10,905 bases of DNA from Chloroflexota bacterium (GTDB taxonomy: Bacteria > Chloroflexota > Dehalococcoidia > SHYB01). Shown piece by piece: positions 1-10,905 of this stretch; positions within the stretch are counted from its first letter, which is position 1, and each line of letters opens with the position of its first letter. The position numbers were made by a program, and so were the translations under genes. The DNA is taken from assembly GCA_016200725.1 (NCBI GenBank), contig JACQEE010000280.1:1-10905 (forward strand), in the 5' to 3' direction. The notes under the pieces are model-generated. The model searched no databases and had not been told where the DNA came from. It saw only the letters and a list, made by a program, of their open reading frames with translations.

Positions 1-971
1 CAGCGTCGAGTGCGGCCGCGTGTCCGAGCTGGCAGCGCGCCGCGGCGACGGGCAACGGCGGTGTCGTCAAGCCCCTGACCGGCTCGTTCCTGCGGCCTAC
101 CTCCCAGGCCGTTTCGGCGCCGGACACCGGATTCCCAGAAGTCACCTTCGAGTTCAACGGCGAGGGCGCGAGCATGTTCGAGCAGATCACCCGGCGCGAC
201 CTCCAGAAGCCCCTCGGTATCTTTCTCGACAACCAGTTGATTTCCGCGCCGATCATTCAAGCGGTGATCACGAGCACGGGTCGCATCACCGGCCTGGCCA
301 GCGCCGAGGCGAAGCGGCTCGCCATCCAGCTGAACGCTGGTGCCCTGCCCGTGAGCATCAAGGTGGTGCGCGAGCAAGACGTCTCGTCTACGCTCGGCGA
401 CGACTCGCTGCACAAGAGCCTGGTCGCGGGAGCGATCGGCGTCGCACTGGTGGCAGCATTCGTGCTGCTGTATTACCGGTTCCTTGGCCTTGTTTCGATT
501 GTGTCGTTTAGCATCTATGCCTTGCTCGTGCTCGCCATCTTTAAAATGACGAACGTCACGCTCACGCTGTCGGGCATCGCCGCCTTCATCATCTCCATTG
601 GTTTCGCGGTGGACTCGAACATCATCATCTTCGAGCGTATGCGGGAAGAGCTGCGGTCGGGCCGGTCGCTCGGCGGTTCCATCGAGACGGGCTTCGATCG
701 CGCGTGGAGCGCCATCCGCGATAGCAACGTCGCGATGGTCATCGTGATGTGCATCCTGTGGTGGTTCGGCGATCAGTTGGGCGAGCCGCGGGTCATCGGC
801 TTCGCGATAATCATGCTCATCTCGGTGCTCGTCAGCATGTTCACCGCGATCACGATCAGCCGGACGCTGCTGCGGCAACTCGTCGGCACCGGCATCAGCA
901 AGCGCACCGAGTTATTCGTGGACACCAAATCGGAAACCAAGCCAGGGGCCCCGCAGCCCCAAAGTTCATAG
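1..971 (+). CDS. secD: SecD, protein-export membrane subunit (3' part only)
   Basis: C-terminal part of SecD; the gene enters from the left edge and the reading frame is open from base 3, giving about 322 residues. With SecF it forms a membrane complex that uses the proton gradient to help complete export through SecYEG. The end of the periplasmic P1/P3 region is visible: LTGxFLRPTSQAV, a substrate-pocket-like LDNQLISAP, and NAGALP. Several membrane segments follow. The signature GFAVDSNIIIFER matches the family GMAVDANVLIFER, and the Asp at bases 612-614 corresponds to the essential SecD Asp (E. coli D519, Thermus D340). The ATG at 174 lies inside conserved sequence and is not the true start. 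The tail after the last membrane segment is short and Lys/Pro/Gln-rich. SecF starts 15 bases after the stop, so the two are very probably one operon. Confidence 0.96.
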   Translation, partial: ASSAAACPSWQRAAATGNGGVVKPLTGSFLRPTSQAVSAPDTGFPEVTFEFNGEGASMFEQITRRDLQKPLGIFLDNQLISAPIIQAVITSTGRITGLASAEAKRLAIQLNAGALPVSIKVVREQDVSSTLGDDSLHKSLVAGAIGVALVAAFVLLYYRFLGLVSIVSFSIYALLVLAIFKMTNVTLTLSGIAAFIISIGFAVDSNIIIFERMREELRSGRSLGGSIETGFDRAWSAIRDSNVAMVIVMCILWWFGDQLGEPRVIGFAIIMLISVLVSMFTAITISRTLLRQLVGTGISKRTELFVDTKSETKPGAPQPQSS

Positions 972-976
972 GCCCC

Positions 977-980
977 GGAG
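977..980 (+). promoter_or_regulatory. Ribosome binding site of secF
   Basis: GGAG lies six bases before a GTG at 987. It fixes a GTG rather than an ATG as the secF start, because the protein from this GTG begins with a typical SecF N-terminus (FDIVRWRKWFY followed by membrane segment 1). Confidence 0.7.
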
Positions 981-986
981 CCCCTC

Positions 987-3683
987 GTGTTTGATATCGT
1001 CCGCTGGCGCAAATGGTTCTACCTGTTCACTGGCCTTCTCGTGCTGGGGGCCATCGTGGCGCTGATCGTGCCGCCGCACCTGCCGTTCGGCCTCGAGTTC
1101 TCGAGCGGCAGCTCGATCGACGCCACGTTCAAGGAATCGGTAAGTCTCCAGGACGTGCGGGGGAAGCTCGACGCGATCGGTCTGAAAGAGGCCACGATTC
1201 AGCAATCTGGCGATAAGAGCTTCCTCATCCGGACGAAGGTGATCGAAGAAGGACTGCTGCCTATTCTGGAGAAACAATTCGGCAAGGTAACGACCGTCAA
1301 CTTCGATGGGCCGACAGACCTCGCGGCGAGCGTGACGTTCGCGAACGCTGTAAACACAGGAACACTGTTCGCCTATTTCGGACAGACGCCGCCAGCATCG
1401 GTGCAGTTGGGCAACCCCGATGCGAATCGCATCCTCGTCGTGGCGCCCGGCACAGGGGACGACGTGCTCAACCCTGTGCTGCAGAAATGGCAGCAGGCCT
1501 ACGGGGCCTTCGATCGCGTCGACTTCAACGGCCAGGGTGATGTAGCGACACAGATCCAGTTCAAGAATGCCGTGGCCGCGAAGGACGTCGCTGACGAATT
1601 GACTAAACAAGGCGCGCCGACGGTTATCACGACGCAGATTACGAGCGACGCCCTCCTCCTCTCCGGGAAGGACATCGCCTTTGACCTGCGCGACAAGGCG
1701 CTCGGGGCGCTGGACACGCGCTTCGGCGAGAACACGAAGACGCCGTTCGACTTCTCCAATGGACGGCTCTTTACCGTGCGCTTCACCGCGCCGGTGACGC
1801 TGTCGAAAGTCCAGGCTGAGATTTTGTCCACGCTGGCGACGGAGAACGTTGCCGCGAATGCGACGGTGCGCCGCAACGGCCCGGGGACGTTCCTGCTCCG
1901 CGGCCTTACGCCGGACAAGGTCGAATCGGTCGTCGCCAATCTGCAGCAAGCGCTCGGCCCGGCGGACGTGACGCGCTTCCAAGCGGACAAGGACCTAGCG
2001 CTCGTCATCGACTTTGGGCCAGACGTAACCCTTCCCCAGTTCACGCAGCAGGCGCAGCAGCTGGGCATCGGCTTGATCACCGACACGGCCGGCGGCGCAA
2101 ACACCTTCGCAGTGCTCGGCGACGCGATCACGCCGCAGCAGCGCGATGATCTGCTCGCGAGACTTGACGTCCAGTTCGGCAAGGCCACCCTGACGCAGTT
2201 CGACCAGAGCAACGACCTTCGGCTGATCATGAAGTTCGACACTCCGCCTACTCTGGCGGATGCTAAGGATGAATTGACCAAGCAAGGCATCGCGGCTTCG
2301 TTGGTGCTGAAATTGGACGTGAGCCGCCTCTTTGTCGGCGCGAAGGCGGCACCGGACGGCACGCGGCAGAAGATTATCGATGCGCTTACCGCTCGCTTCG
2401 GAAACAACGTCCCTGCAGACCTGCCGGCCGAGAACACCATCGCAATGACGCTGAACTACGGCGCCCCTGTAGACCTGGCTACGATGCGCCGCGAACTCAT
2501 CTCCTTCGGAAATCCGGCGATCTCGGTTTCAGTCGATGACGGCACAGGACTGTTGCTGACCGGCGTCAATACCGCGCCGGGCGTGCGGCAATCGCTGATC
2601 AACTACCTCGAGCAGAAATATGGACCGGCGAAACAGACGCCAATCGACGCGGCAGCCACGCCACTCATTCAAGGGCACTTCAACGATCAAGAGAAGGTCG
2701 CAGAAGCGATCAATAACCGGATGATCTTGCGAGATAACGGCAATGGCTCGTTCTTCATCGCCGGGCACAAGTTCGATGCGAACCTCAACCAAGCGTTCTT
2801 TAGCAATCTGGCAGAAGCCTTCTCGGGCGTGCAGCAACAGCCGTTCAACTTCACGGAAGGCGTGGCGACGACGCTGATATTCAACCCGCCGGTGGCGCCT
2901 GACACCGTCAAGACGGCGCTGCAACCCTTTGGCTACACGGACCTGAGCATCGAACAGCGGACGGACGGCCTGTTCATCAAAGGCAGCCGCCCGGCGAGCG
3001 ATCAGCGCAGCACCATCGTGCGCGCACTCAAAGAGGCGGGGCCGCTCGATGAGAAGACGGTGCAGTTCGCTACGGTGGACTCGCAGATCGCGAAGCGAAG
3101 CATCACGCACACGATCTACGCGGTTATCGCAGGAACGGTCGGTATCCTGCTCTACATCTGGTACGCGTTCCGCAAGGTCAACCGGCCGTTCCGTTACGGC
3201 GCGACGGCCGTGGTGACGCTCGTGCACGACATCCTGATCATTGTGGGCATGTTCGCGCTGCTGGCGAAGTTCACGAACGTGGAGATCGACTCGCTCATGA
3301 TCGTCGGCGTGCTGGCGATCATCGGGCACAGCATCAACAACACCATCGTGGTGTTCGACCGGGTGCGCGAGAATGTCGCCCGTTTCCCGGCCCGAGACTT
3401 CGCGACGTCGGTGAATGTGAGCCTGAACGAGACCTTGGCGCGCAATCTGAACCTCAGCATCACGACGCTCGTGGCCATCCTCGCCATCTATCTCTTCGGC
3501 GGCGAGACGATCCGCAATTTCATGCTCGTGCTGCTCATCGGCGTCGTGGCGGCGACGTATGGGGGACTGTTCCTCGCGGGGAACATCCTGGTGTCGTGGG
3601 AAAAGGGCGAACTACGATTGCGATTGCCCTGGCGACGCCGCCCATCGACTGCCCAGACACAGGCGCCCGCCGCGCGAACCTAG
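987..3683 (+). CDS. secF: SecF with a giant repeat-built extracytoplasmic domain (898 aa)
   Basis: SecF, partner of SecD in the proton-driven export motor. Usual SecF proteins have about 300 residues; this one has 898. Membrane segment 1 is at about 10-28 and five more at about 707-868. Family motifs are clear: VTLVHDILIIVG (743-754), GHSINNTIVVFDRVREN (780-796), NETLARNLNLSITT (814-827) and LFGGETIRNF (836-845). Residues 42-700 are about nine tandem copies of a 74-residue beta-alpha-beta unit, where normal SecF has one P1 domain. Two further oddities stand out. The proton-relay Asp of GYSxND (E. coli D213) is Asn785 with a preceding His781, although the partner Arg is kept at 819. The canonical DFxGG motif after segment 1 reads EFSSG. 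The start is GTG with GGAG six bases upstream. The reading frame is intact and the C-terminal membrane half is conventional, so this is a real gene and not a fusion artefact. Confidence 0.95.
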   Translation: MFDIVRWRKWFYLFTGLLVLGAIVALIVPPHLPFGLEFSSGSSIDATFKESVSLQDVRGKLDAIGLKEATIQQSGDKSFLIRTKVIEEGLLPILEKQFGKVTTVNFDGPTDLAASVTFANAVNTGTLFAYFGQTPPASVQLGNPDANRILVVAPGTGDDVLNPVLQKWQQAYGAFDRVDFNGQGDVATQIQFKNAVAAKDVADELTKQGAPTVITTQITSDALLLSGKDIAFDLRDKALGALDTRFGENTKTPFDFSNGRLFTVRFTAPVTLSKVQAEILSTLATENVAANATVRRNGPGTFLLRGLTPDKVESVVANLQQALGPADVTRFQADKDLALVIDFGPDVTLPQFTQQAQQLGIGLITDTAGGANTFAVLGDAITPQQRDDLLARLDVQFGKATLTQFDQSNDLRLIMKFDTPPTLADAKDELTKQGIAASLVLKLDVSRLFVGAKAAPDGTRQKIIDALTARFGNNVPADLPAENTIAMTLNYGAPVDLATMRRELISFGNPAISVSVDDGTGLLLTGVNTAPGVRQSLINYLEQKYGPAKQTPIDAAATPLIQGHFNDQEKVAEAINNRMILRDNGNGSFFIAGHKFDANLNQAFFSNLAEAFSGVQQQPFNFTEGVATTLIFNPPVAPDTVKTALQPFGYTDLSIEQRTDGLFIKGSRPASDQRSTIVRALKEAGPLDEKTVQFATVDSQIAKRSITHTIYAVIAGTVGILLYIWYAFRKVNRPFRYGATAVVTLVHDILIIVGMFALLAKFTNVEIDSLMIVGVLAIIGHSINNTIVVFDRVRENVARFPARDFATSVNVSLNETLARNLNLSITTLVAILAIYLFGGETIRNFMLVLLIGVVAATYGGLFLAGNILVSWEKGELRLRLPWRRRPSTAQTQAPAART
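1110..3086 (+). repeat. Nine tandem P1-like modules inside SecF (protein-level repeat)
   Basis: Residues 42-700 divide into units starting near 42, 112, 186, 260, 337, 411, 484, 559 and 627 (bases 1110, 1320, 1542, 1764, 1995, 2217, 2436, 2661, 2865). Each unit has a strand ending in an aromatic residue (F48, F118, F192, F266, F343, F417, Y491, F565, F632), a helix, a central strand such as SFLIR, TFLLRG, LLLTG or LFIKG, a second helix, and an FG-x6-FD-like end (F98, Y172, F246, L323, F397, F471, Y545, F612, A684). Spacings between markers are 70, 74, 74, 77, 74, 74, 74 and 67 residues, a nearly constant period. The units are strongly diverged; units 3 and 6 still share DELTKQG with near-identical codons (1593-1613 and 2268-2288). 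The fold is inferred to be ferredoxin-like, as in the normal P1 domain. Confidence 0.85.
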
Positions 3684-4558
3684 CCGTCGCTCAGCCCCAG
3701 TTCTCGAGCCACCAACCGCTGGTATTCGTTCGCCATTTGGCGTGTCACCGGCCCCGGTGTGCCATCACCGATGCGCTTGCCATCGATCGCGGTAACCGGC
3801 TCTACCTCAACAATCGAGTTGGTGACGAACACTTCATCCGCTGCGACCAGCTGTTTCATAGTCACGCGCTCTTCCGATGCGTTGACCCTGCACTCAGCCG
3901 CGACCTCTAGCACAGCAGCGCGCGTGATGCCGGGCAGCAGGCCGCAGTCTAGCGATGGAGTTACCACACGCTTGTCCCGGACGATGAAAAGATTCGAGAG
4001 GCAGCACTCGGTGACGTCGTCGCGCTCGTTGAGCAGGATCGCATCGTCCGCGCTTTGACGCACCGCCTCCGCATGCGCGAGCAGATTCTCGAGATAATTC
4101 GTGGCCTTGATGCGCGCCAGCGGCGAGGCGCTGTGGCGTCGCGTGCTGGCGAGGCAGAGACGATAGCCGCGCTCCCATGCTGTTGTGTCGAGAGTCGCGA
4201 GCGGCGACCATGTGATCAAAATGGTCGGTGGTCCCGGCGCAGGGACGATGGGTCGCGCAGGCCCTTCGCCAGCGGTAACGGTCAGACGTATGCGCGCATC
4301 GCTCAAGCGATTCGCCTCGAGAACGGAGGCAACCGCGCGTTCGAGAGTGTCGTGTGGCGGCAACGAAATCTCCAGAATGCGCGCGCCGTCGGCAAGACGA
4401 TCGAGATGCGAGCGCAGGCGGAAGACGCGGCCGCGATAGACGCGCATCGTCTCGAACACGCCGTGTCCGTAGAGGAGCCCATGATCGAACGCGGAGACGC
4501 GCGCCTCCGCAGCAAGCACCAAACGCCCGTTCAGCCAGATGTGGGATGAGGCAGACAT
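3680..4558 (-). CDS. Class IV PLP-dependent aminotransferase / aminodeoxychorismate lyase family
   Basis: A 292-residue fold-type IV PLP enzyme, the family of branched-chain aminotransferase, D-alanine aminotransferase and aminodeoxychorismate lyase (PabC). Visible motifs: FDHGLLYGHGVFETMRVY (24-41), SHLDRL (50-55), the probable PLP Lys151 in ARIKATNYLEN, Glu184 in TECCLSNLF for the cofactor ring nitrogen, LLPGITR (207-213) and ADEVFVTNSIVEVEPV (240-255). FET rather than FEG in the first motif and TNSIVEVEPV lean towards PabC or D-amino-acid aminotransferase over IlvE, but the substrate cannot be fixed from sequence. I chose the ATG at 4558 (MSASSHIWLNG) because homology starts there; an in-frame extension to 4756 looks random. 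There is no clear Shine-Dalgarno; TACAAT ends eight bases before the ATG. It converges on secF with a 4-base overlap and has no operon partner in the window. Confidence 0.9.
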   Translation of the reverse strand: MSASSHIWLNGRLVLAAEARVSAFDHGLLYGHGVFETMRVYRGRVFRLRSHLDRLADGARILEISLPPHDTLERAVASVLEANRLSDARIRLTVTAGEGPARPIVPAPGPPTILITWSPLATLDTTAWERGYRLCLASTRRHSASPLARIKATNYLENLLAHAEAVRQSADDAILLNERDDVTECCLSNLFIVRDKRVVTPSLDCGLLPGITRAAVLEVAAECRVNASEERVTMKQLVAADEVFVTNSIVEVEPVTAIDGKRIGDGTPGPVTRQMANEYQRLVARELGLSDG

Positions 4559-4566
4559 ACGGGCGC

Positions 4567-4572
4567 ATTGTA
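4567..4572 (-). promoter_or_regulatory. Start-proximal -10 box of the class IV aminotransferase (leaderless-type)
   Basis: Read on the minus strand, TACAAT is followed by eight bases and then the ATG at 4558. A -10 here predicts a transcription start about two bases before the ATG, leaving no room for a ribosome binding site. I find no good -35. The same arrangement is seen before two other genes in the window. Confidence 0.5.
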
Positions 4573-4659
4573 GGCGAAAACGAAATCGCGAGGTGGCGGG
4601 CACACGCCGCATGATGTGAATGAATTGAGATACTCGCGTAAATTTTGCGGCACGGGCTA

Positions 4660-4689
4660 TTGACAGTAGGTCACCACACATGACATTAT
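4660..4689 (+). promoter_or_regulatory. Sigma70-like promoter for the 12-codon ORF unit
   Basis: A perfect -35 TTGACA (4660-4665) is followed after 18 bases by CATTAT (4684-4689, four of six matches to TATAAT). The stretch around it is visibly more AT-rich than its surroundings. The predicted start near 4696 gives a leader of about 80 bases before the small ORF at 4779. No other plus-strand gene lies downstream before the terminator at 4956. Confidence 0.6.
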
Positions 4690-4713
4690 TTTCAGGACTC
4701 AAACGACATGATG

Positions 4714-4742
4714 CGGTTGTGGGGCGATAACCAGCACAACCG
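4714..4742 (+). promoter_or_regulatory. Leader hairpin upstream of the 12-codon ORF
   Basis: CGGTTGTG (4714-4721) pairs perfectly with CACAACCG (4735-4742) around a 13-base loop, inside the predicted 5' leader and about 25 bases before the Shine-Dalgarno. It may be only an RNA-stabilising stem. No known riboswitch class is recognised. Confidence 0.45.
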
Positions 4743-4766
4743 ATCCTCAAGGTCAAACCTCAGCGG

Positions 4767-4773
4767 AAGGAGG
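4767..4773 (+). promoter_or_regulatory. Consensus Shine-Dalgarno of the 12-codon ORF
   Basis: AAGGAGG, five bases before the ATG at 4779. It is the strongest ribosome binding site in the window and the main reason to take this very short ORF seriously. Confidence 0.75.
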
Positions 4774-4778
4774 AAACC

Positions 4779-4817
4779 ATGGCGAAGAAGAAACCCAAGA
4801 AGAAATCCAAGAAGTAG
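4779..4817 (+). CDS. 12-residue Lys-rich micro-peptide
   Basis: The ORF encodes MAKKKPKKKSKK: eight Lys in twelve residues and no acidic or hydrophobic stretch. The context is that of a deliberate gene: TTGACA promoter about 90 bases upstream, leader hairpin, AAGGAGG five bases before the ATG, TAG stop, and a strong terminator 140 bases downstream. The transcript would be about 300 bases. The function is unknown. I see three options: a free basic peptide binding nucleic acid or ribosomes; a regulatory ORF whose Lys run slows ribosomes; or a dual-function small RNA in which bases 4818-4955 matter most. I know no named family that matches. It is too short for similarity searches to be informative alone, so conservation of position and Shine-Dalgarno in relatives would be the test. 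Confidence 0.6.
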   Translation: MAKKKPKKKSKK

Positions 4818-4955
4818 GACTCTACTATCGGAGGAACGGCGTCATCGCTAGTAGGCAAGTGCCGCAGAGCGAGGACGCAGTCCCGGGTACCGATCCGCGA
4901 GTCGCGGCGACGGTGGCGCGGGAAAGTTCTCACCGGTCTATATGACCAGACGCGA
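4818..4955 (+). other. Transcribed non-coding tail between micro-ORF and terminator
   Basis: These 138 bases are presumably transcribed together with the micro-ORF. Visible small inverted repeats are CTACTA/TAGTAG (4822-4827 with 4849-4854), CCGCG/CGCGG (4895-4899 with 4903-4907) and GGTC/GACC around TATAT. There is no start codon with a usable Shine-Dalgarno and no known RNA family that I recognise. It could be an untranslated tail or the body of a small RNA. Confidence 0.4.
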
Positions 4956-4995
4956 ATCGAGGGAGGCCGAAAGGGCCTCCCTCGATCTTTGTTAT
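4956..4995 (+). terminator. Hairpin terminator of the micro-ORF transcript
   Basis: ATCGAGGGAGGCC (4956-4968) pairs over 13 of 13 bases with 4974-4986 around a 5-base GAAAG loop. It is followed by CTTTGTTAT, a weak T-rich tail on the plus strand. The minus-strand side has no T-run, so it works for plus-strand transcription. Confidence 0.75.
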
Positions 4996-4997
4996 CT

Positions 4998-5037
4998 TCC
5001 CCTCTCCCGTAGTCGGGAGAGGGTGCAGGGTGAGGGT
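4998..5037 (-). repeat. REP-like palindromic element, intergenic copy
   Basis: CCCTCTCCCG (5000-5009) pairs with CGGGAGAGGG (5014-5023) around TAGT, followed by GCAGGGTGAGGG. Read on the minus strand the order is CCCTCACCCT, CCCTCTCCCG, hairpin. This is the same pattern (CTCACCCT, then CCCTCTCC, hairpin, GGAGAGGG) as the copy inside the class III aminotransferase at 9752-9812, in opposite orientation. Such dispersed palindromes are known in many GC-rich bacterial genomes. It sits between the terminator and the 3' end of the aldo/keto reductase. Confidence 0.6.
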
Positions 5038-5060
5038 TGACGCGACGGCCCGTCGCGTCA
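5038..5060 (-). terminator. Hairpin overlapping the aldo/keto reductase stop codon
   Basis: TGACGCGACG (5038-5047) pairs perfectly with CGTCGCGTCA (5051-5060) around GCC. Bases 5058-5060 are the reductase TGA stop on the minus strand. No T-run follows on either strand, so it is not a classical intrinsic terminator. It may stabilise the 3' end of the reductase mRNA or act with the adjacent REP-like hairpin. Confidence 0.5.
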
Positions 5061-6059
5061 CGCCGAGTGCGCGGCCTGCGCGGGCTCGAGGCAGAAGTCG
5101 TTGTCGAAGAGTGCGTAGAGGCGTTGCACGTCGGCCTTGGCGATCGGCGACTTCGCTGTCGCGGCGCAGAACTCGATGAGCTGCGGCTCATTCGTGAGGT
5201 TGGGCAGGATCGAGATGATGTTGGGCTCGGCGAGCACGAACTGCAACGCCGCCTGACCGATGGTCATCTCGTAGTTCTCGCGGAGGAACTGGATCTGCTT
5301 CACTTTGTTGAGGCTGCTGTCGAGCCACTCGCGCTTGCGATGGGCACGGTGGTCGCTCTCGGGGAAAACCGTGTGCTCGTTGACCGTGCCGTCGAGCAGG
5401 CCGCTGGCGTGCGGCACGCGCGAGAGCATGCCGGTGTTGGTAGCCTTTGCGATGGGGAAGAACTTTCGCGACGGGTCTTGCTCGAGGATGCTGTGGATGA
5501 TCTGCACCGAGTGCACGTGGCGCGACTCCATCGAGGCCTTGCCTTCGTCGAACCAGCCGATGTCGGGGCCAATCGCGCTGCCGTAGTAGCGGATCTTCCC
5601 CTCGCGATGCAGTTGCTCGAGCGTGTCGAAGATGGCGTCGTCGTTGATCGCGGCGATGCGCGGGTTGTGCAGTTGATAGAGATCGATGTGGTCGGTGCCT
5701 AAGCGGCGCAGGCTCTCCTCGCACGCCTTGCGGATGAATTTCGGCGACCAGTCTTGCGGCAGTTCCTTGTGACCGGTGCGCGCGCCGGCGTGCGTGTACC
5801 AGTCGTAGCCGAACTTGGTGCCGATGACGATCTCGTTGCGCTTGCCCTTGAACGCCTTGGCGAGGATCGTCTCGCCGATGCCGTTGCCGTAGGTGTCGGC
5901 GGTGTCGTAGAAGTTGACGCCGAGGTCGAGCGCCTTCTGCAGCAACTTGACGCCGCTCGCCTCGTCGATGACGCCCCACCAGTTCGTGGCGACGGTCCAG
6001 ACGCCGAAGCCGATCTCGGAGAGCGAAAGGTCAGTGCGATTCAGTTTGCGATACTTCAT
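5058..6059 (-). CDS. Aldo/keto reductase
   Basis: A 333-residue NAD(P)H-dependent oxidoreductase of the aldo/keto reductase superfamily: cytosolic TIM barrels that reduce carbonyls to alcohols. The full catalytic tetrad is visible: Asp52 and Tyr57 in [12 protein letters not shown], Lys82 in IGTKFGYD and His131 in DLYQLHNP. [13 protein letters not shown] near the N-terminus and [14 protein letters not shown] (283-296) near the cofactor region fit the family. The substrate is unknown. The ATG at 6059 ([19 protein letters not shown]) is chosen because homology starts there and GGGAG lies six bases upstream; an in-frame extension to 6221 has no family sequence. The gap to the DUF1326 gene upstream is 88 bases and contains a possible promoter, so it may be transcribed alone as well as from the operon. 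Confidence 0.93.
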
Positions 6060-6092
6060 GCGAAACTCCCGAAGGAAAGTGGGCCGCCGACT

Positions 6093-6098
6093 ACTATA
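6093..6098 (-). promoter_or_regulatory. Possible -10 box of the aldo/keto reductase
   Basis: On the minus strand TATAGT (five of six matches to TATAAT) lies 33 bases before the ATG, leaving room for the GGGAG ribosome binding site (bases 6066-6070). No convincing -35 is found at the usual spacing. Confidence 0.4.
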
Positions 6099-6147
6099 CG
6101 ACAGGCGATGTTGCGATTCTAGGACAAGTTGGGCTGCTCGATAGCAC

Positions 6148-6765
6148 CTACTTGTCCGAGCGATAGGCGAAGTCAGTAGCGAAGGCGGCGCGGCCGTTGA
6201 ACTCCCAGCAGAGCGGAGCATCGTCTACCTTGAGCAGCGAGGCGCGGAGTTCGTGGCCGGGATGGTCATAACCGGGGATGCCGCAGGCGACAGCACCGCT
6301 CGCGTCCACGACAGCCTCTTCCCGGACAGTCACCCAGGCCCCGGCCTTGATGCTGCGGCGCCCTGGGGTGTGATCGAGCGCAATATGCGCTGGACGCACC
6401 GCATGAACTTCGGCGATGGCGCCGGCGAAGTTCTGGCGTGTCGTGCCGCCCGCGCGACCGAGGAAGATGGCCGCGAGGGCGTCGCGCTGCGCTGAGTTCG
6501 CCTGCTCGTCTACGTAGAGCGTGGCGCGCCACGGCGTGCCGGGCTCGGCCTCTGAATACCAAGCGGCTAGCACTACGCCGAAGCCGGAGAGGTTGATGTC
6601 GGCGGCGCGGCCTTCTTTGATAAGCCAGGAAAGAGCGAAATCGCATACGCCGTAGGTCGAGGGGTTGCCGGGCCGCCCATTTTGAATCCGACAGGGACAG
6701 ATCGCCTCGCAGTTGCATGCCTCGAAGTATGAGCCGGACACGTTCCAGGGCAGATAGGTGGACAA
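6148..6765 (-). CDS. DUF1326 domain protein
   Basis: A 205-residue protein of the DUF1326 family, whose function is not established. It opens with the family hallmark [19 protein letters not shown]: Cys17, Cys19, Cys23 and Cys25, with Cys41 in GVCDF, suggesting metal binding or a redox site. Other family-like stretches are [39 protein letters not shown] and an FxGAI segment. No membrane segment or signal peptide is seen. There is no in-frame ATG in the proper place. The TTG at 6765 gives [11 protein letters not shown], and GAGGAG four bases upstream supports it. It starts 14 bases after the deacylase stop, so the two are almost certainly cotranscribed. As far as I recall DUF1326 genes are often beside a DUF2182 membrane protein; none is present here. 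Confidence 0.85.
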
Positions 6766-6769
6766 GAGT

Positions 6770-6775
6770 CTCCTC
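6770..6775 (-). promoter_or_regulatory. Ribosome binding site deciding the TTG start of the DUF1326 gene
   Basis: GAGGAG on the minus strand lies four bases before TTG (6763-6765), within the 14-base gap after the deacylase stop. Confidence 0.55.
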
Positions 6776-6779
6776 GAGG

Positions 6780-8489
6780 CTACGACGTAGAGTAGTCGCC
6801 GCTGCGGAGCAACGCGCCGGGTGTCGCGCCGGTGTGGACGCCGTGCTCTAGCAGCACCTGGCCGTTGACGACGGTGTAGTGGATGCCCTGCGCTTTGTGG
6901 TACATGCGTGGATTGTTCCCCGGTAGGTCGAAGACCTTCTCGCGGGCGCAGGGGGCGACAGTGTCGGGGTCGAAGACGACGATGTCGGCGGCCTTGCCTG
7001 CGGCGATGAGACCGCGGTCGGTGAGTCCCATCACGAGCGCGGGCATGTGGCTGAGGCGGCGCACGGCGTCCTCGAGCGTGAGGCGCTTGCGCTCGCGCAC
7101 CCACTTGCTGAGCAGCACCGTCGAGTAGTCAGTGCCGGGGTCGAATTCGAGGTGCGCGCCGGCATCGGAGACGCCCACGATGGTCTGCGGGTGGCGCAGG
7201 ATCTCGGTCACCGCGTCGTCGTCGGCGTTGAGGATGCCCTCGTAGGCGAAGCCGGTCGCGAGGTTTTCCTCGACGGCGAGATCGAGCATCGCGTCGAAGG
7301 GATGCTTGTGCTGTTCGGCGGCGATCTCGGCGATGTACCGACCTTCGAGGCGCTTGTTCTTCGGCAGCGACGCCTCGCGGACGACGACGGTCTTGAGGTC
7401 GCGGCGCGGCAGCGTCGTGGCGACGAGGTAGTCGAACTCCTGGCGCAGCGCTGGTCGCAGCGAGGGATCGCCGAGTAGACGTCGTCGCTCGGCGAGGTCC
7501 GGCGTCTCGACCACATTGCCGAACTTGGAGAAGTGCTGAAAGAGGATCGTGTAGGTGAACGAGAAGTCGAAGTCGATCGAGCGGCAGGAGCCCATCGCGT
7601 ACACGCGGCCGCCTTGCCAGTTGGCGTCCTCCATCGCGTTGAGGATGTCGCGGTAGCCGTGCGGCCGCTCGGGCTTGTAGAAGAGCGCGTTCCAGACGAC
7701 GGGGCGACCGCTGGCCTTGGAGATGGCGGCGAAGAAGGGCCAGTTGTCGGGCGTCTGCATCGTGCCGTCGTTCTTGGGGTTGTAGGCGAGGATGCCGCGC
7801 CCGAACTCCTTGAGCACGCAGCCGAGGGCCATCAACTCGGCGTCGCTGGCGAGGCGGCTGGGCACCGGCTTGCCGTTCATCGCGTAGTCGAAGATCTGGC
7901 GCGACGTCGAGAAGCCCCACGCGCCCGCGGCCATCGCCTCGCGGACGAGCGCCTGCATGCGCGCGACCTCGTCGGGCTTCGCCTCGCGCTCATAGGCGTC
8001 GCCGCCCATGACGTTGTAGCGCACGGCGGAGTGGCCGATCTGCGCCATGACGTTCACGCCGAGGCTTCGCCCGACGCGGTCGAGGTACTGCGGGAAGGTG
8101 CTCCACTCCCAGCCGAGGCCCTTGTTGAGCACGTCCATCCTGATGCCTTCGACGCGCGCGAGGATGCCCATGAGATAGTCGCGGTCGGTGGCGGTCGGTT
8201 TGCACGGGGCGAGGGTGAAGCCGCAGTTGCCCATGAGGATGGTGGTGATGCCGTGCCAGCAGGAGGAGGTGGCGAGCGGGTCCCACATGAGTTGCGCGTC
8301 GTAGTGGGTGTGCAGGTCGATGAAACCGGGGGAGACGGCGAGGCCATCGGCGTCGATGACGCGTCGCGCTGAGCCGTCGATGTCGCCGACGCCGGCGATC
8401 GTGCCGCCCTGCACGGCCACGCTACCGTGGAATGACGGCGCGCCGCTGCCGTCGACGATGCGCGCGTTCTTGATCAAGAGGTCGTACAT
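6780..8489 (-). CDS. Amidohydrolase family 3, N-acyl-D-amino-acid deacylase-like
   Basis: A 569-residue metal-dependent amidohydrolase of the D-aminoacylase/N-acyl-D-amino-acid deacylase group (family 3), expected to hydrolyse an amide or related bond in the cytosol. Order: N-terminal small beta domain (MYDLLIKNARIVDGSG), metal motif FIDLHTHYDAQ with His60 and His62, GNCGFTLAP with Cys89 (a zinc ligand in D-aminoacylase), GHSAVR with His153, GVSDAGAH with Asp442 (catalytic Asp position), then C-terminal beta domain GKAADIVVFDPDTV. The two later His ligands of characterised D-aminoacylase are not apparent: the matching places read GILAYNPKN and VVWNALFY. It therefore probably belongs to a different subgroup whose substrate is unknown. 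ATG at 8489 with GGAGGT five bases upstream. First gene of an operon with the DUF1326 gene; divergent from the class III aminotransferase. Confidence 0.88.
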   Translation of the reverse strand: MYDLLIKNARIVDGSGAPSFHGSVAVQGGTIAGVGDIDGSARRVIDADGLAVSPGFIDLHTHYDAQLMWDPLATSSCWHGITTILMGNCGFTLAPCKPTATDRDYLMGILARVEGIRMDVLNKGLGWEWSTFPQYLDRVGRSLGVNVMAQIGHSAVRYNVMGGDAYEREAKPDEVARMQALVREAMAAGAWGFSTSRQIFDYAMNGKPVPSRLASDAELMALGCVLKEFGRGILAYNPKNDGTMQTPDNWPFFAAISKASGRPVVWNALFYKPERPHGYRDILNAMEDANWQGGRVYAMGSCRSIDFDFSFTYTILFQHFSKFGNVVETPDLAERRRLLGDPSLRPALRQEFDYLVATTLPRRDLKTVVVREASLPKNKRLEGRYIAEIAAEQHKHPFDAMLDLAVEENLATGFAYEGILNADDDAVTEILRHPQTIVGVSDAGAHLEFDPGTDYSTVLLSKWVRERKRLTLEDAVRRLSHMPALVMGLTDRGLIAAGKAADIVVFDPDTVAPCAREKVFDLPGNNPRMYHKAQGIHYTVVNGQVLLEHGVHTGATPGALLRSGDYSTS

Positions 8490-8516
8490 GGCCCACCTCC
8501 GCCCCGTGAGGGGATG

Positions 8517-8522
8517 ATACTA
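8517..8522 (-). promoter_or_regulatory. Possible -10 box of the deacylase operon
   Basis: TAGTAT on the minus strand, 27 bases before the ATG at 8489, leaves room for the GGAGGT ribosome binding site (bases 8495-8500). It matches TATAAT in four of six positions and has no clear -35. Confidence 0.3.
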
Positions 8523-8549
8523 CGCGCCGGTGAGGCCGTGTTTCCTAGG

Positions 8550-8555
8550 TATACT
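8550..8555 (+). promoter_or_regulatory. Start-proximal -10 box of the class III aminotransferase (leaderless-type)
   Basis: TATACT (five of six matches to TATAAT) followed by eight bases and the ATG at 8564. The predicted transcription start is about two bases before the ATG, matching the lack of a Shine-Dalgarno. It shares the 74-base divergent region with the deacylase promoter. Confidence 0.5.
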
Positions 8556-8563
8556 TGAGCGCC

Positions 8564-9994
<1,431 letters not shown>

Positions 9995-10006
9995 GAGGCA
10001 CGCCGC

Positions 10007-10012
10007 TACAAT
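10007..10012 (+). promoter_or_regulatory. Start-proximal -10 box of the zinc-ribbon/RDD gene (leaderless-type)
   Basis: TACAAT followed by six bases and the ATG at 10019. Standard -10 spacing puts the transcription start exactly on the A of the ATG. There is no credible Shine-Dalgarno. It lies in the 24-base gap after the class III aminotransferase. Confidence 0.5.
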
Positions 10013-10018
10013 AGGCGC

Positions 10019-10594
10019 ATGGCCGCAACAAGCCCCGCCGTCCGGTGCATCAACTGCTCGCTGGAGAACCTGTCGAGCGCGACTTTCTGCCAGCGTTGCG
10101 GGTCGCTGCTGGGTACGCTGGCCGAAGGGGACATCGCCTCGACGAAGCGGCGCGCGCTGACGTGGGTCGTTGACCTCATCTCGGTGTTCATTCCATATGT
10201 GAACGTGGCGTTCATCGTCGGCGACCTGTTTGGCTTTCGACGGGGCAAGACCTTCGGCGGCTACGTGGCGAAGACGCGGGTCGTGCGTGAGAATGCTGAG
10301 GTCGCCGGCTTCTATCATTCGATGGTGCGGGCCGCCGCGGCGACTTTGAGTCTCATACCGCTCGGTGCCGGCTTCTTCTGGTCGCTGTGGGACGAGCGGC
10401 GGCAGACATGGCACGATAAAATCATGGGGACGTACGTCGTGAACGACACGCCGCAGTTTGCCACACGGCGCGCATCGAGTTCACGCGCGGCCGTAGCCTT
10501 CTTCTGGCTGGCTCTGGTGGTGTACCTTGGGGTGGGCACGGCAATGATTACCCTGTTCATCTGGGCCTGGAGCAGAGGGCCAAACTTACACTGA
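10019..10594 (+). CDS. Zinc-ribbon plus RDD-family membrane protein
   Basis: 191 residues. The N-terminus holds a zinc ribbon (Cys10 and Cys13 in CINC; Cys24 and Cys27 in CQRC), probably cytoplasmic. An RDD-like domain follows: KRRALTWVVDLISVFIP (43-59) with a first membrane segment at about 47-68, GKTFGGYVAKTRVVREN (76-92), a hydrophobic stretch near 104-122, and the diagnostic end SLWDERRQTWHDKIMGTYVV (122-141). A last membrane segment is at about 157-183, then a short tail. RDD proteins have no single known role; some are proposed to be transporters. The zinc ribbon suggests a regulatory or protein-binding part. Its stop overlaps the start of the ThyX-like gene by one base (TGATG), so the two are cotranscribed and probably translationally coupled, although no shared function is known. 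Confidence 0.85.
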   Translation: MAATSPAVRCINCSLENLSSATFCQRCGSLLGTLAEGDIASTKRRALTWVVDLISVFIPYVNVAFIVGDLFGFRRGKTFGGYVAKTRVVRENAEVAGFYHSMVRAAAATLSLIPLGAGFFWSLWDERRQTWHDKIMGTYVVNDTPQFATRRASSSRAAVAFFWLALVVYLGVGTAMITLFIWAWSRGPNLH

Positions 10595-10905
10595 TGACCA
10601 CAACGCAAACAAACCAACAACTCCGCGTTTACCCGCTCGACCCGCGCGCGATGAGCCAGGAGCAGATTGCGGTGGTGTTCGCGATGACATCGCGGAACCC
10701 GCAGTCGTTCGACGAGATTGCGAAGGTGGTGACCGAGTCCAAGGCGGCGGACTTCAACGAGAAATGGGTCGTGGGCTATGGGCACGCCTCGGTGGCCGAG
10801 CACGCCGTCCTGCACATGGCCGTGGAGAACCTCTCGCGCCTGGCCTGCGACGTGCTGGAGGATAACCGGCTGGCGTCGTACACCGAGAAGTCGTCGCGCT
10901 ACCAG
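10594..10905 (+). CDS. ThyX-like (FAD-dependent thymidylate synthase family) protein, 5' part
   Basis: The first 104 residues of a protein leaving the right edge. It resembles the N-terminal half of ThyX, the flavin enzyme making dTMP from dUMP: GYGHASVAEHAVLHMAVENLSR (61-82) corresponds to the ThyX GHxSxxEH and SR segment, and NRLASYTEKSSRYQ (91-104) to the region that normally holds RHRxxSxNxxSxRY. The diagnostic Arg-His-Arg is Asp90-Asn91-Arg92, so canonical thymidylate synthase activity is uncertain. I recall similar EDNRLASYTEK-type proteins in Dehalococcoidia annotated as ThyX, but this is memory, not a search. The ATG at 10594 overlaps the stop of the RDD gene by one base. No separate promoter or strong Shine-Dalgarno is seen, which fits translational coupling. 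Confidence 0.8.
   Translation, partial: MTTTQTNQQLRVYPLDPRAMSQEQIAVVFAMTSRNPQSFDEIAKVVTESKAADFNEKWVVGYGHASVAEHAVLHMAVENLSRLACDVLEDNRLASYTEKSSRYQ

Follow-up and report, generated by a model that had tools for sequence, protein, structure and literature searches.

A Chloroflexota SecF with nine tandem P4 domains between its first two membrane helices

SecDF is widespread in bacteria, and the role of the P4 domain of SecF is much less clear than that of the SecD P1 head. We analyzed a 10,905-nucleotide stretch of a Chloroflexota genome (hereafter the window; assembly GCA_016200725.1, contig JACQEE010000280.1, positions 1 to 10,905 of the forward strand) in which secF (987..3683, +) encodes 898 residues in one open frame from a GTG start. 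The loop following the first membrane helix of this SecF consists of nine tandem modules homologous to P4, a domain which ordinary SecF has once, and the nine are best explained by internal duplication. A first-pass annotation of this DNA had proposed about nine tandem modules, homologous to the single soluble domain of SecF and produced by internal duplication, and to this extent it is borne out. The name P1 which it gave to the domain has to be replaced by P4 in SecDF nomenclature, the repeated domain not being the moving P1 head of SecD which it had invoked, and the interval which it gave (1110..3086, residues 42-700) is the array only and not the whole open reading frame. Consistent with its remark that no such SecF was known, no description of a SecF with several P4 domains was found in searches of an open-access library, including PMC8669966, PMC9508474, PMC7695460 and PMC4139356, a library outside which subscription papers mostly lie.

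The array spans residues 43-699 and is made up of nine in-line modules of 69-76 residues, with starts spaced by 69, 74, 74, 74, 76, 72, 74 and 70 residues. Ungapped self-comparison of the loop at offsets of 30-329 residues gave four sharp peaks, at 74, 151, 225 and 299 residues, where the best ungapped segment scored 115-141 as compared with 59 at the next offset. When six-sequence profiles of the modules were compared all against all (profile-profile comparison by hhalign), 31 of 36 module pairs reached at least 60% probability in at least one direction, and the pairs which fell short were those of module 8 with modules 1, 2, 5 and 9 and of module 5 with module 9. With a profile of ordinary P4 as query, the probabilities for modules 1 to 9 were 97.7, 84.7, 93.4, 95.6, 62.8, 96.8, 63.0, 24.1 and 94.6%, as against a maximum of 1.3% for 75 control sequences, shuffled or reversed, which were compared only with modules 3 and 6 and with the profile of ordinary P4. 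Module 8 was weak in this comparison and its assignment rests on modules 4 and 7, which it matched at 96% and 95%, respectively. Besides module 1, modules 9, 6 and 4 were also close to ordinary P4.

An independent test used a hidden Markov model (HMM) built solely from 59 ordinary single-P4 SecFs. This HMM recognized nine stretches at regular spacing in L001, a relative, and the window protein, L002 and L061 each gave seven, several of them weak; its best score on 102 shuffled or reversed sequences was 2.2 bits. Modules 1 (1113..1319, residues 43-111), 3 (1542..1763, residues 186-259), 4 (1764..1985, residues 260-333), 6 (2214..2429, residues 410-481) and 7 (2430..2651, residues 482-555) were all placed by hhalign, HMM and structure model. 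Modules 2 (1320..1541, residues 112-185) and 8 (2652..2861, residues 556-625; the weakest by profile comparison) were missed by the HMM in the window and placed by hhalign and model, as was module 5 (1986..2213, residues 334-409), for which the HMM match was partial and weak. Module 9 (2862..3083, residues 626-699), placed by all three approaches, runs into membrane helix 2. All lie on the forward strand. No match to the ACT family was obtained in the window SecF at E-values up to 0.1.

The AlphaFold models were likewise repetitive. In the whole-protein model (mean predicted local distance difference test score, pLDDT, 60.5; predicted template modelling score, pTM, 0.40) nine successive strand-helix-strand-strand-helix-strand units were observed, the last of which closes with a short strand at residues 693-695. 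The model of the array alone (mean pLDDT 74.3, pTM 0.53) again gave nine such units, 54 elements in beta-alpha-beta-beta-alpha-beta order followed by one short helix, and this is the ferredoxin-like order of P4. When the array model was compared with PDB and viral libraries, the nearest folds included side-by-side ferredoxin-like pairs and SecDF itself, with no convincing match to the whole array. Resemblance to the tandem ACT domains of aspartate kinase is at the level of fold only, with no sequence match, and the Z score may reflect just a common arrangement.

By family score and gene context the nine-module protein remains a SecF. It scored 240.2 bits with TIGR00966 (cut-off 160) and 155.8 bits with PF02355 (cut-off 20.5, E 1.1e-45), while PF07549, which describes the GG motif after helix 1, gave 17.6 bits (cut-off 20.3) over the stretch EFSSGSS. 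Six membrane helices, with the large soluble loop after the first, were predicted by hydropathy and by six model helices, most with pLDDT under 50. Helix 1 (1008..1067, +; residues 8-27) was predicted by hydropathy and as a model helix with pLDDT under 50; helices 2-6 (3084..3602, +; residues 700-872) form the SecD_SecF_C domain as defined by PF02355 and aligned to solved SecDF. The loop between helices 1 and 2 is about 660 residues long, as compared with 60-93 residues in the 59 single-module SecFs. With ordinary SecF (TIGR00966) the protein shares helices 2-6, the order secD-secF, P4 homology and the Arg at the R247/R671 position; it differs in having nine P4 domains instead of one, Asn and not Asp at the D637 position, and 898 residues as compared with mostly 300-350.

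Immediately upstream lies the 3' part of secD (3..971, +), the window starting inside the gene. It encodes an ordinary SecD C-terminal half (TIGR01129, 268 bits; Pfam matches to SecDF_P1_head and SecD_SecF_C) and ends with TAG at 969-971, followed by GGAG at 977-980 ahead of the secF GTG. Since secD is a separate gene, a SecD-SecF fusion was rejected as the cause of the length of the window SecF. In L001, L002 and L106, as in the window, secF is encoded beside secD, and in these three loci the SecD is ordinary (frames of 451-469 residues).

Six distinct nine-module proteins were found: the window protein, P0002, P0003 (the same as L061, genome G009), P0004, L001 (genome G001) and L002 (genome G002). 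The relatives share 38-47% identity with the window protein, and in agreement with the expectation that relatives would keep frame and repeat number, all six have nine modules. An assembly or frame artefact would find its one argument in the metagenome-derived nature of the records; the six distinct proteins in separate records, with a frame open throughout and under codon constraint, led us to reject it, and we regard it as scarcely credible. According to their titles, the records belong to Chloroflexi and Dehalococcoidia metagenome-assembled genomes. The array was present in all four genomes examined from the family of G001, including G010, whose copy is cut by a contig end and is a near-copy of P0004 (679 of 682 residues the same), and in four of the five genomes examined at the level of the order, the fifth (G011, L078) having an ordinary one-module SecF. 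In a quick tree of SecF membrane domains (122 rows) the nine-module rows formed one clade, with Shimodaira-Hasegawa-like approximate likelihood ratio test (SH-aLRT) support of 100. The secF frame of the G010 copy (L107) was also seen to end in LVSWERAN, whereas P0004, which is nearly identical to it, runs on as usual; a difference in assembly at the level of single bases may be the cause.

Across these proteins, the best match of a module in another protein had the same module index in 236 of 270 comparisons, with 30 expected at random, and the array was therefore most likely complete before these species diverged. Mean identity among the six was 49% for module 1, 55% for module 9, 30-36% for modules 2-8 and 65% for the membrane part. 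The idea that the first unit is the original P4 is too simple, modules 1 and 9 being both the most conserved and both P4-like. For L061 versus L107 the ratio of nonsynonymous to synonymous substitution rates (dN/dS) was 0.16 over modules 3-8 (418 codons) as compared with 0.11 in the membrane part; for the window versus L001 the array (modules 2-8) gave 0.52 and the membrane part 0.22. These values are rough, since synonymous sites approach saturation in either pair (proportion of synonymous differences 0.61 and 0.63 over the array). The array thus appears to be under purifying selection, as judged from L061 versus L107.

As to distribution, a search of 5.8 billion proteins yielded 45, namely the window protein, the three other P entries (98-99% coverage) and 41 which matched 15-37% of the query. 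It was not exhaustive: scoring was confined to 7993 candidates with the most words in common, and L001 and L002 were not among them. A second protein search, confined in the same way, returned the same 45. A survey of the phylum, not a census, gave a SecF match in 378 of 400 genomes, and among the matches listed five frames exceeded 600 residues, three of them nine-module proteins (G001, G002 and G009) and two SecD-SecF fusions (L161 and L132). In another survey 139 of 148 genomes matched, and 15 frames of 817-950 residues were not of the nine-module form; five of these were examined and all were fusions.

Smaller arrays were also present in the phylum. When P4 modules were counted in 166 rows, one was found in 124, two in 20, none in 12, nine in six, five in two, and seven and three in one row each. 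The counting model was trained partly on nine-module proteins, so that their nine is not independent there; independent support for nine comes from the ordinary-P4 HMM, the profile comparison and the array-only model. The threshold was 5 bits, which one stretch among 332 control sequences passed, at 5.4. The row with seven (L062) is a copy truncated where its contig stops, and counts are minima, L193 and L197 having room for a third, degenerate module and L091, L093, L100 and L101 counting as one although their loops are of two-module length. Four two-module rows were discounted, namely L103-L105 (SecD-SecF fusions with the second match within SecD) and L089 (a split P4), and L102, a fusion, has two matches inside the SecF loop which may be tandem or split, leaving about 15 two-module rows.

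Five modules were found in P0047 and P0048 (661 residues, from another Dehalococcoidia lineage), P0047 being annotated simply as SecF and identical over the array to L063, and in L032 (from a genome titled Phototrophicales); three were found in L194. The five-module SecFs resemble the nine-module form in carrying a tandem P4 array between helices 1 and 2, and differ in having five copies, in keeping the Asp and in their separate places in the tree. Modules of L063 and L032 were most similar to single P4s or to other modules of their own protein and not to the nine-module array, with one exception by a small margin (module 5 of L063, which scored 57 against a nine-module copy, 54 against its own and 114 against a single P4). 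At least two origins, on branches with strong support, are required to account for the rows with three to five modules. Arrays of two, three and five modules arose separately in other Chloroflexota, and P4 amplification is thus recurrent in the phylum.

These separate expansions show that P4 duplicates readily, and they could be read as the outcome of slippage alone, with copies persisting without added function. The tolerance of other SecFs for unrelated inserts in the same loop, and the position of modules 2-8 as the least conserved part of the protein, with the higher of the two dN/dS ratios, agree with such a neutral history. It is difficult to reconcile, however, with a count of nine in every distinct protein, with position-specific module identity, and with dN/dS below 1 in both pairs and lowest in the closer one, and we consider it very improbable.

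Two other kinds of long loop were considered as relatives of the arrays and rejected. Among long SecFs of about 480-586 residues on another branch, the eight loops examined (L143, L148, L149, L154, L156, L157, L158 and L161, the last a fusion) had a low-complexity insert rich in Thr and Pro, with Ala, and no tandem modules. Eight SecFs with such inserts were included in the tree, where they make up a single supported branch. In L089, L092, L094, L095 and L097 a P4 is split by an insert of about 100-150 residues rather than repeated in tandem. This insert had no Pfam match in L092, L094 and L097, the three of the five which were scanned, and all five are on one branch.

The SecF proton site also differs in the nine-module proteins. 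Asn785 of the window SecF (codon 3339..3341, +) aligns with Asp637 of Thermus SecDF, and Arg819, which with Asn820 is encoded at 3441..3446 (+), aligns with Thermus Arg671 (E. coli R247) and is kept; the Thermus numbers were counted along the alignment with solved SecDF. Thermus D637 (E. coli D213) is an important residue of the proton site. At the Asp637 column all 7 nine-module rows (the six distinct proteins and one cut near-copy) carry Asn, and Asp is present in 151 of the 156 rows having no more than two modules. The same 7 rows have Asn at the position following Arg671, where 155 of the 156 have Ser. Conformational change of the outside domains is tied to the proton channel, involving E. 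coli SecD D519 and SecF R247, according to PMC8669966.

This change in the proton site hints at a retuning of the motor in its SecF half. In its strong form, this would mean that array and Asp-to-Asn change are linked and that SecDF has abandoned the standard proton cycle to become a passive holding machine, for which the two invariant Asn columns would speak. Against this, the SecD Asp at the D519 position (VDSN in the window) is kept in the window, L001, L002 and L106, and the SecF Arg at the R247 position is likewise kept; the other five rows with two or fewer modules also carry Asn at the Asp637 column without a large array (L065, L076, L087, L088 and L099, on several branches); and Asp is retained in L032, L063 and L194, which have three to five modules. 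The link between Asn785 and array size is thus loose, and we consider the strong form improbable.

With respect to function, the reading we favor, with a confidence that stops somewhat short of an even chance, is that this SecF with nine P4 copies forms what is likely an arch, anchored to the membrane by its two ends, which would bind exported protein outside the cell as it emerges from the Sec channel. From the established topology of SecF the array would be extracytoplasmic, and the absence of cysteine from it in all six nine-module proteins is compatible with an outside location. An array inserted between two membrane helices, its two ends both returning to the membrane, is better pictured as an arch, a ring or a cluster than as the free long arm proposed in the first-pass annotation. 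Judging by conservation, the membrane-adjacent modules 1 and 9 may pack on the SecD P1-base as an ordinary P4 does, and modules 2-8 would be added surface. In the Super-F form the sheets of P1-base and P4 rearrange into one barrel (PMC8669966), which suggests that P4 sheets could pair by their edges. Neighboring modules might then form a continuous sheet platform that catches an unfolded chain and stops it from sliding back.

Omp85 was found in 0 of 6 genomes (the four with the array and two others; the control was positive in 7 of 14, and completeness of the genomes is not stated). An outer-membrane Omp85 partner as the target of the array, which the annotation's idea of reaching through a thick envelope would allow, therefore looks unlikely, and because none was found the platform would most likely serve proteins released to the cell surface or wall.

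Several observations weigh against this preprotein-binding arch. The middle modules are only 30-36% identical between species, and with the dN/dS of 0.52 for the window versus L001 this suggests a surface less constrained than would be expected of a precise binding site. The placement of one module relative to the next is of low confidence in both models (pTM 0.40 and 0.53), so that arch, ring and compact cluster are indistinguishable, and the lack of Omp85 in genomes whose completeness is not stated does not prove a single membrane. The holding of preprotein, likely though it is, and the docking of partners, both suggested in the first-pass annotation, are putative functions, as would be any substrate, partner or binding site.

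It is possible, if on the whole doubtful, that the array is instead a spacer or docking arch, whose modules position SecDF relative to a cell-surface layer or hold a foldase, signal peptidase or YidC and do not bind preprotein. The fixed number of nine and the steady length of middle modules of low identity would suit such a role, and a SecF interaction site has been mapped on E. coli YidC (PMC8669966). Its reach would nevertheless be limited, both ends of the array returning to the membrane, and no shared candidate partner gene other than secD was seen beside secF in the immediate neighborhood at four loci.

RND exporters such as AcrB are structural relatives of the SecF membrane part, and their large outside loops are made of small alpha/beta subdomains (PN1, PN2, PC1 and PC2); none is known to carry nine homologous copies arrayed within a single loop. 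The POTRA arms of Omp85 proteins are chains of small alpha/beta modules which hand over exported chains. They differ from the SecF array in fold order and family, and unlike them the array is tethered at both ends, in genomes in which no Omp85 was found.

Other genes of the window were noted in passing. A class IV aminotransferase (Pfam match; 3680-4756, -) lies on the opposite strand just past the nine-module secF. Look-alike frames occur, likewise on the opposite strand, in the relatives L106, L107, L001 and L002; with the window included, the frame comes directly after secF in three loci, and it is one or more genes away in L001 and L002. A further frame (6148-6780, -) has a CNCEAICPC motif, which is presumably typical of DUF1326.

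The widest form of the proposal is that a Chloroflexota lineage has made SecF into a built-in export chaperone, in which nine P4 sheets, paired to give a single unbroken platform outside the cell, would capture and ratchet preprotein in concert with a re-engineered proton site, and that the phylum has reinvented this with other copy numbers; as a whole we hold this to be rather unlikely. The natural series of SecFs with one, two, three, five and nine P4 copies, of which the nine-copy form is accompanied by an unchanged SecD, offers a ready-made experiment. If P4 holds preprotein, the prevention of backsliding should scale with copy number, and the change in the SecF proton site would give a further means of studying the coupling between the motor and the domains outside.

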